The notes below the pieces were generated by a model, which saw only the letters and a program-made list of their open reading frames with translations, did no database searches and had not been told where the DNA came from. Below are positions 21,224 to 23,296 of a DNA stretch of 48,886 nucleotides, piece after piece (the first letter of the stretch is position 1; each line of letters starts with the position of its first letter). Origin of the DNA: Deltaproteobacteria bacterium (GTDB lineage: Bacteria; Desulfobacterota; Dissulfuribacteria; Dissulfuribacterales; UBA3076); NCBI GenBank assembly GCA_018399745.1, contig JAGYNZ010000022.1:1-48886 (forward strand), in the 5' to 3' direction. The position numbers were made by a program, and so were the translations under genes.

Positions 21224-21252
21224 TTGACAGTTTCAGGAACCATTTCTATTAT
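21224..21252 (+). promoter_or_regulatory. sigma-70-type promoter of tRNA-Gly
   Basis: TTGACA (21224-21229), a spacer of exactly 17, and TATTAT (21247-21252), 16 bases before the mature tRNA 5' end. A perfect -35 and a 5/6 -10. Confidence 0.85.
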
Positions 21253-21268
21253 TCGAATGCGGTTCATT

Positions 21269-21343
21269 GCGGGAATAACTCAGTGGTAGAGTGTAACCTT
21301 GCCAAGGTTAAAGTCGCGGGTTCAAATCCCGTTTCCCGCTCCA
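21269..21343 (+). tRNA. tRNA-Gly (anticodon GCC)
   Basis: Acceptor arm GCGGGAA pairs with TTCCCGC, followed by discriminator T and an encoded CCA, 75 bases in all. The D arm holds ACTCAGTGGTAGAGT, the anticodon stem TAACC/GGTTA encloses loop TTGCCAA with anticodon GCC, and the T arm is GCGGG-TTCAAAT-CCCGT. All arms fold. It forms a complete unit with its own promoter and terminator. Confidence 0.97.
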
Positions 21344-21357
21344 ATCATTAAGATAGC

Positions 21358-21381
21358 AGGGCAGCAATGGCTGCCCTTTTT
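21358..21381 (+). terminator. terminator of the tRNA-Gly unit
   Basis: AGGGCAGC-AATG-GCTGCCCT is a perfect 8-bp stem with a 4-base loop, followed by TTTT. It ends 13 bases before the ATG of the cytochrome gene. Confidence 0.85.
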
Positions 21382-21394
21382 ATTTCCGTCATTT

Positions 21395-23296
21395 ATGAAA
21401 AAATTTCCTCTGTGTCTAATAACCTGCTCTACTTTTCTATTTATTTTCATACTGAATCTGGAAATTTTTGCAGGGGCTAAACTTCAAAATCCCCAGGTAA
21501 AGCAGGTTGCAACCACCGTAAGCGGCCGAGTAGATCTCTGCCTTTCCTGTCACAAGGAAAAACCAGACAAAAGTCACGGAAGAGAGGTCCTGGGGTGTGC
21601 TGTGTGTCATATGGGGAACCCGCTTTCCGGCGACAAGCAACGGGCACATTCGGGTATGGTTCTGAATCCAGGAGAACTTCGATTTGCAGATAAAACATGT
21701 GGTCAGCTCGGCTGCCACCCGAATGAGGTCACTTGGGTTAAGAACTCACTTATGGCTACAAATCGCGGTATCATAAGCACCCTTCGCTTTTACTGGGAAG
21801 AGAGCCCTGATCACAATGAAGACATTTCGGTAAAAATGCTGAAAGATACGGGTATGAATTCTCTTGCCCTTGATTACTACAGGAAGTTGTGTGCGAGTTG
21901 CCATCTATGGGTGGAGCGTGGGAGTCTTCCTGATTTTCTGGCATACAAGGGCGGGGGTTGCACCGCCTGTCACTTTGTGAAAGACGAAGAAACAGAACTA
22001 AAGGACGAGAGACATCCAGGAATACTCAAGATTGTTCCCATGGAAAATTGCGTCTTATGTCACAACCGAAGTGGGCGTATTGGGCTGTCGTATCAGGGAC
22101 GATTTGAGTCTGAGGGCTATGGTACCCCGTATGAAGAAGGCGATTTTTCTACCCAAGAGTTGATTGATGGCCGTTTTTACCGAATATTTAAGGACGATAT
22201 TCATCACGAAAAAGGAATGACTTGTATTGACTGCCATACCCAAAAAGAAATTATGGGAGATGGAGAGCGTCATGCCCATTTTGAGAACCAACTGGAGGTT
22301 ACATGCGGGGATTGTCATGATATTTCTAAAACATTAGAGATAGTTATTGCAGCCAAAAGAACTGATAAAAGCACGTCTGCTATCTCGAAGTCCTCCTCGA
22401 ACCGCGTGGAAATACCAAAACAACAAATAGATCAATCACCAAATCCACCCAGTCCTCCCGAACTCAACATACAGCAGAAAAACGACTCGTTTTTCCTTGA
22501 AAATAAACAAAGTAAAAAACTTCATCCGCTACACGCTCCTAATCCGGTCTCGTGCATGCATCCAACTCATCGCCGCCTGTCCTGCCAGGCATGCCATAGC
22601 AAGTGGGTGCCTCAGTGCTACGGCTGTCATATACAGATGGATATGAGCAAGACCCAATTAGATAAGGTTTCAATAAATGAGACCCCAGGGCTCTGGAAAG
22701 AGTTTCGTTCATTTATCCGTTACGAATGTCCACCCTTGGGAATACTTGAGCATACAGAGAGGGGAGGGAAGAATCCTTCTGAAAAGACCGGGCTTCAAGC
22801 CAAGACTTCCGAGGTGGTTATTCTTGTTCCCGGGTGACAGGATTTCATTACCTTCCTGGACGGGGGGGGCAAATGGAAACGTGATTTTATTCGCCTCACA
22901 GTTTCATGGATGGACCCTCATACCACGCAGAAAGATGGACGCTCCTGCAAGGAATGCCACCAAGACCCCAGGGCCTTAGGACTCGGTCAGGGCAGCCTGT
23001 CCCTTGGATCTAATGGGTGGAGTTTCACATCCTCTCTTTCAGGTCCTTCCACCTCCTTGGACATAGACCACCCCCTGGACGCCTTTGTCGACATAAAAGG
23101 CAGGCCCTTGGTCCTTACATCAAGAAAGGGACTAAGGCCCTTTAATTCACAGGAACTTGATAAGATCCTCTATGTGGGCCTCTGTCTCCCATGCCACACA
23201 GATTTTGACGACCCTGTAATGAGAAAGTGGACGCCCGGACAAGCACCTTCCCCTTGTCTCCATGCCGATTTTTTAACCAACCAGCATGGTCCATAG
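21395..23296 (+). CDS. 12-haem cytochrome c with in-frame TGA (candidate selenoprotein)
   Basis: Secreted multihaem cytochrome. ATG 21395 begins MKKFPLCLITCSTFL, a Sec signal peptide ending near IFAGA (27); the open frame extends upstream into the tRNA but that part is not coding. Haem-binding CX2CH sites start at Cys49, 68, 166, 189, 219, 277, 304, 397, 408, 518 and 597, plus one CX4CH at Cys102 (CGQLGCH). Codon 481 (22835-22837) is TGA in the context ILVPG-TGA-QDFITFLDG. The frame then runs on uninterrupted for 152 codons with two haem sites, to a TAG. From memory, related cytochromes have Cys at this place (PGCQ), so selenocysteine fits; a nonsense mutation splitting the gene is the alternative. 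It likely acts in periplasmic or extracellular electron transfer. No clear RBS; the tRNA terminator lies just upstream. Confidence 0.8.
22835..22879 (+). promoter_or_regulatory. candidate bacterial SECIS stem-loop after in-frame TGA
   Basis: After TGA (22835-22837) the RNA can fold as TTTC/GAAA (22843-22846 with 22876-22879), ATT/AAT (22847-22849 with 22872-22874), and an upper stem CCTTCC/GGGGGG (22851-22856 with 22862-22867) closed by the loop TGGAC. Nineteen bases separate TGA from the loop, and G is the second loop base; both fit the published bacterial SECIS rules as I recall them. The upper stem has two G-U pairs and rests on a run of eight G, which weakens the case. Confidence 0.5.

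Follow-up and report, generated by a model that had tools for sequence, protein, structure and literature searches.

A twelve-haem c-type cytochrome related to ExtM with a probable selenocysteine in place of a conserved cysteine

The first selenocysteine (Sec)-containing c-type cytochrome was suggested in 2007 for GSU2937-2936 (PMC1914089), which was later named ExtKL (PMC5877670). Selenoprotein multihaem cytochromes are, as a kind, already known through ExtKL/MccSep. The link of the ext cluster to selenite and tellurite reduction rests on an extI mutant (PMC5877670). The same Geobacter cluster, extHIJKLMNOPQS, encodes ExtM (NF040943), a twelve-haem protein for which no demonstrated reaction was found in the literature consulted. 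A 2026 review of 119 selenoprotein families, in its accessible part, lists ExtKL together with an octahaem tetrathionate reductase-type entry (TIGR04315, with a GenBank-annotated Sec member). Here, we describe a gene for a further multihaem cytochrome, interrupted by an in-frame TGA, and compare it with these systems.

The gene lies in a stretch of 48,886 nucleotides (the window, meaning the whole of the DNA analysed) from a deltaproteobacterium of the order Dissulfuribacterales. An ATG at 21395 opens a frame whose sole internal stop is a TGA at 22835-22837 (codon 481, context VILVPG-TGA-QDFITF), and 152 sense codons follow, with no further stop or shift, up to a final TAG at 23294-23296. Read through, the complete gene (21395..23296, on the forward strand, as are all window features given below) would encode an exported twelve-haem c-type cytochrome of 633 residues, as judged from the frame, full-length orthologues and a match to NF040943. 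A signal-peptide-like N-terminal stretch (MKKFPLCLITCSTFLFIFILNLEIFA, 21395..21472) was recognised by eye in the translation, and eleven CX2CH sites and one CX4CH site make up the twelve haem sites. The count of twelve in the preliminary description was thus recovered, and its figures for the frame, the TGA, the 152 codons, the two CX2CH sites among them and the TAG were all correct. Both of those sites lie past the TGA, namely site 11 (CKECH, residues 518-522, 22946..22960), invariant in an alignment of homologues (A3), and site 12 (CLPCH, residues 597-601, 23183..23197), conserved in at least 90% of A3. The twelve haem sites in general are invariant or nearly so in A3, and with the signal seen by eye they place the protein among the multihaem c-type cytochromes. 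The single CX4CH site (CGQLGCH, in the context TCGQLGCH; residues 102-108, 21698-21718) is kept across the cytochrome family.

Attachment of c-type haem is a periplasmic process. One alternative is that the TGA is a true stop, giving a 480-residue, ten-haem product and leaving the remainder as a remnant or as a separate gene beginning at ATG 22910. TGA is indeed the terminal stop of 11 of the 30 window genes, and an open reading frame does span 22910-23296. However, a protein started at 22910 would have no export signal despite its two haem sites, and the conservation of the gene among relatives, described below, also speaks against termination at codon 481.

We searched 40 relatives with the read-through protein. 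Orthologues with one in-frame TGA were present in 34 of them and orthologues with none in two; a comparable full copy was missing from the other four. When the first 29 orthologues were aligned, 27 shared the position of the TGA, and the remaining two had TGT (Cys) there and kept the full-length frame. Of ten more distant homologues, one (L071, 471 aa) was left out because it aligned poorly around column 481, and the other nine had Cys, within PGCQ. The family alignment was then used to search the whole phylum, and in an alignment of 91 homologues column 481 was Cys in 50, in-frame TGA in 41 and nothing else, a distribution well outside what chance would give; the outgroups, which include true ExtM, read PGCQ. 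This alignment of an in-frame TGA with a conserved Cys of homologues is that of a bacterial selenoprotein gene. The preliminary description had given PGCQ for relatives and had proposed to look for Cys or TGA at this position in homologues, and on both points the alignment agrees with it.

The codons past the TGA are also maintained. Nei-Gojobori dN/dS values against L018 were 0.064/0.278 after the TGA and 0.035/0.261 before it, and against L019 0.055/0.635 after it, showing purifying selection past the TGA as before it. A plain nonsense mutation or sequencing error, which the preliminary description had kept as an alternative, is excluded because 34 of the 40 relatives carry a one-TGA orthologue, and a pseudogene was rejected on the same count together with the purifying selection past the TGA. 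Termination at codon 481 is likewise very improbable, since these relatives keep the TGA and an open frame beyond it, the downstream dN/dS is well under 1, every non-TGA homologue has Cys, and the two TGT genes retain the full-length frame. Residues adjoining column 481 were kept out of the tree, on which Sec and Cys required three changes, compared with about 30 in shuffles; this is most simply read as a single origin of Sec and two later returns to Cys. The exchange of Cys for Sec appears from these comparisons to have been kept across one whole bacterial order and in families beyond it. Some loci show extra in-frame TGAs at the far C-terminal end; these were rejected as second Sec residues, being most simply ordinary stops passed by read-through translation.

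The genome that carries the window encodes the complete Sec machinery, with selC (tRNA-Sec, 74.5 bits, cut-off 47), selB (355 bits, cut-off 242), selA (607 bits, cut-off 268) and selD (384 bits, cut-off 125) all above curated cut-offs, and selD itself contains a TGA. The preliminary description had named these four genes as the ones to seek elsewhere in the genome. A search of 65 genomes detected SelA in all but two, and selA was rejected as a discriminator of Sec and Cys genomes; it permits Sec here but cannot discriminate, because Cys-type genomes also have it.

A bacterial SECIS stem-loop lies just past the TGA. Its core (22851..22869), supported by folding, covariation and a synonymous-codon null, consists of a 7 bp stem pairing 22851-22857 with 22863-22869 around the apical loop GGACG (22858-22862), with 20 nt from the TGA to the loop. 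Loop, spacing and stem are where the published bacterial SECIS model, applied as quoted in PMC13188914, expects them, and no SECIS family in Rfam matched at this site. The 54 nt from the TGA (22835-22888) fold with an energy of -16.4 kcal/mol (z -2.9). Across 26 TGA genes, 91.7% of the cells in the hairpin were paired and 15 cells had changed on both sides; none of 500 shuffles gave as many, and the in-register value was above that of every slid register. These compensatory changes, which include C-G to G-C, C-G to U-A and U-A to C-G, bear out the Sec reading of the preliminary description.

Because the hairpin sits in coding sequence, each gene was compared with its own synonymous recodings, an analysis in which the hairpin of the window gene had an energy of -9.3 kcal/mol. 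The mean z was -1.21 in the 41 TGA genes and -0.03 in the 50 Cys genes, and the published SECIS shape was found in 38 of the 41 TGA genes (17.8 expected) compared with 13 of the 50 Cys genes (12.3 expected). The Cys genes as a group, unlike the TGA genes, therefore have no hairpin beyond synonymous-codon expectation. The difference between the two groups gave a Mann-Whitney p = 2e-7, a value that is optimistic since the tips are related. Six genes from other families (L082, L083, L102, L105, L122 and L131) each had a z of -2 or below.

An open frame alone does not specify the residue inserted, and the UGA could be read through by means other than Sec, through a reassigned code or misreading by Trp-tRNA, to give a full-length protein that contains no selenium. 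We regard this as scarcely credible. The code is standard and not reassigned, because TGA serves as the normal stop of the 11 window genes mentioned above, and a change in the genetic code was rejected on that ground. In addition, no homologue has Trp or Gly at column 481; homologues with no TGA carry Cys, the residue with which Sec usually exchanges, and a SECIS element is present. We are therefore highly confident, from the comparative evidence, that Sec is inserted at codon 481. SelB, bound to the hairpin just past the codon, would bring Sec-tRNA-Sec to UGA 481, and the ribosome would then go on to the TAG at 23294-23296.

The surroundings of the gene were also inspected. A tRNA-Gly(GCC) gene (21269-21343) lies upstream of the cytochrome gene, with a promoter-like site (21224-21252, 11 of 12 matches) at the head of this upstream region (21224..21377), and a terminator-like hairpin (21358-21377) between tRNA and cytochrome gene ends 17 nt before the ATG. 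The same tRNA-Gly(GCC) directly precedes the cytochrome gene in each of the eight further family-f1 loci that were scanned and in L028, a Cys-bearing relative of another family (scanned loci: L018, L019, L020, L021, L022, L028, L037, L039 and L041), and the hairpin recurs in several relatives. Given the position of the hairpin, transcription of the cytochrome gene may begin at the tRNA promoter and read through into it, possibly with attenuation. The neighbours encode, besides the tRNA, a methyltransferase and GDT1, SPFH and NfeD proteins, the GDT1-type gene lying on the 3' side. No neighbour genes were conserved across families in the loci compared, and no plasmid homologue of the cytochrome was found. 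As a lone gene that lacks conserved partners, it offers no operon clue to its function. In the relative L050, the cytochrome gene is closely followed by a gene for ribonucleotide reductase (L050:6978-10130) that seems to contain an intein, with LAGLIDADG and intein-splicing domains.

A structure model predicted with AlphaFold from 90 alignment rows had a pLDDT of 85.5 and a pTM of 0.85. In this model a beta-hairpin that lies between haem sites 10 and 11 holds Sec481 (model residue 442) in its first strand, and the hairpin ends near His509 (22919..22921, in PHTT), an invariant histidine outside the CX2CH sites, just before haem 11. Foldseek gave no match to the PDB at E 0.001 or better. In a second look with VIA-align, to which folds missed by Foldseek cannot come up, the best match was octahaem tetrathionate reductase (1sp3; Z 8.8, 282 residues, rmsd 4.6), followed by the undecahaem cytochrome 6qvm (Z 3.8). 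Since middling Z values are common with VIA-align, we take the 1sp3 match as a resemblance in predicted fold and not as proof of function.

Exported and fitted with its twelve c-type haems, the product would fold into a haem wire like that of ExtM and, by the model, of octahaem tetrathionate reductase, and Sec481 would take the place of a Cys found without exception in the ExtM superfamily. There it would most likely act as a redox-active selenol and pass electrons arriving along the haem chain to a soluble periplasmic substrate. Residues exchange at ligand-like columns, with Met or His at 120, Met or His at 287 and Cys, His or Met at 387, whereas the only swap at column 481 is between Cys and Sec, a pattern that suits thiol or selenol chemistry better than a ligand open to exchange. 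In other cytochromes, though, some catalytic Cys ligands are strictly conserved. That Sec481 is a selenol active site, as opposed to serving another role, is to our minds nearly an even prospect on the pattern of conservation, while the explanation as a whole, comprising Sec insertion, a haem wire and a redox-active selenol, seems to us likely.

The preliminary description had proposed for Sec either a thiol/selenol ligand or an active site for electron transfer. Sec481 might instead be inserted as an axial ligand to a haem iron, tuning that haem as a selenolate-ligated haem c and not engaging in free selenol chemistry. It belongs to a multihaem protein, on a hairpin ending at His509 just before haem 11, and the conserved non-CX2CH histidines are fewer than the haems, which leaves some haems to be ligated by other residues; SoxA, TsdA and DsrJ provide known examples of c haems with a Cys ligand. 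The failure of column 481 ever to show the Met/His/Cys exchange of the other ligand-like columns argues against such a role, and we know of no case of Sec as a natural haem ligand. We consider axial ligation distinctly unlikely.

The conservation of two non-haem cysteines would suit a different role, in which Sec481 takes part in electron transfer or protects the haem wire, for example as a selenylsulfide switch with Cys387 or Cys621, and does not reduce a substrate. Cys387 (22553..22555) is present in 43/43 of the Sec clade and 11/11 of the Cys sister clade (54/54) and is absent elsewhere, where the column is mostly His or Met and rarely Val or Leu; the C-terminal Cys621 is kept in 40/43 of the Sec clade. 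This mostly His/Met composition, however, resembles that of a haem-ligand column, and ExtM and other Cys homologues hold Cys481 with no Cys387. A role confined to electron transfer or protection is in our estimation unlikely. Cys387 itself is possibly a haem ligand, or else a selenylsulfide or redox partner of Sec481 that would have been acquired before Sec.

For a selenol active site, a chalcogen oxyanion or a sulfur-sulfur or polythionate compound is perhaps the likeliest substrate; this first guess, made by analogy, follows from the link of ext to selenite and tellurite (PMC5877670) and from the predicted fold resembling that of tetrathionate reductase. We would advance with considerable doubt the wider proposal that sulfur-cycling bacteria possess a selenium-dependent multihaem reductase of a new class, defined by a natural haem-selenocysteine centre, whether an Fe-ligating selenolate or a selenol coupled directly to the haem wire. 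The PG-Cys/Sec-Q site is marked as a non-haem thiol or selenol never lost in the ExtM superfamily, and the chemistry of ExtM-type cytochromes is thus testable by a single-residue change. The two reversions from Sec to Cys offer natural pairs for gauging what Sec contributes.

How, then, does this cytochrome compare with those already described? The window protein is homologous to ExtM over residues 43-611 and shares with it twelve haems and the PG-C/U-Q site. Its score on NF040943, 286 bits, falls below the 800-bit equivalog cut-off, and for that reason we place it, from sequence comparison, in a sister subfamily of ExtM and not as an ExtM equivalog. True ExtM proteins (L107, L108, L109 and L132; 990-1070 bits on NF040943) have Cys and not Sec at the site and carry other residues where the window protein has His207 and Cys387, and the window gene, unlike that of ExtM, is outside any ext cluster. 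Several genomes of the same order contain a second, Cys-bearing ExtM-like paralogue (L062-L070), 27-36% identical to the window protein. The closest Cys-bearing relatives form a sister clade (families f25, f71, f83 and f105; e.g. L084 and L086) that is about 50% identical, of similar length and shares Cys387, but has TGC or TGT where the window gene has TGA. Octahaem tetrathionate reductase (1sp3; TIGR04315) has the multihaem periplasmic reductase fold seen in the model of the window protein, yet only eight haems as against twelve, and no sequence match to it was obtained in the PDB or in NCBIfam (TIGR04315, E up to 1).

ExtKL/MccSep resembles the window protein in being a multihaem c-type cytochrome with one Sec from an in-frame TGA, found in the same organisms. 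It has five haems in about 440 aa, and its Sec motif, IPDGUPTPNR, lies past a haem-rich N-terminal part, in contrast to VPGUQD in the window protein. The genome that carries the window has such a cytochrome of its own (G000:C2:50492-51817, L135; 545 bits on NF040886, one TGA), and a Sec-type selD (G000:C2:62587-63513, L059) lies some 11 kb away. This ExtKL-type protein matches PDB 9wt8/9wt9, named MccSep with a U325A mutant, at an E of about 1e-146. Between it and the window protein, BLASTP gave an E of 0.065, that is, no significant similarity, and the window protein did not match NF040886 (ExtKL/MccSep) in an NCBIfam scan up to E = 1. Membership in ExtKL was rejected for this reason, as was membership in ExtM for the score below the NF040943 cut-off.

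The preliminary description called a selenium-dependent c-type cytochrome unusual. The precedent of ExtKL/MccSep (PMC1914089, PMC5877670, 9wt8/9wt9) qualifies this. The twelve-haem family, with its Sec site and spread, is apparently undescribed in the open-access literature as far as could be checked, since neither ExtM nor a twelve-haem family is among the 119 selenoprotein families in the accessible part of the 2026 inventory. Ordinary annotation would split such genes or cut them short at the TGA. The selenoproteins gain a well-supported twelve-haem cytochrome family, with genes in 34 of 40 sampled relatives of one order and in families outside it. The occurrence of ExtKL and the twelve-haem cytochrome in one genome suggests that selenium has been used repeatedly in multihaem electron transfer.
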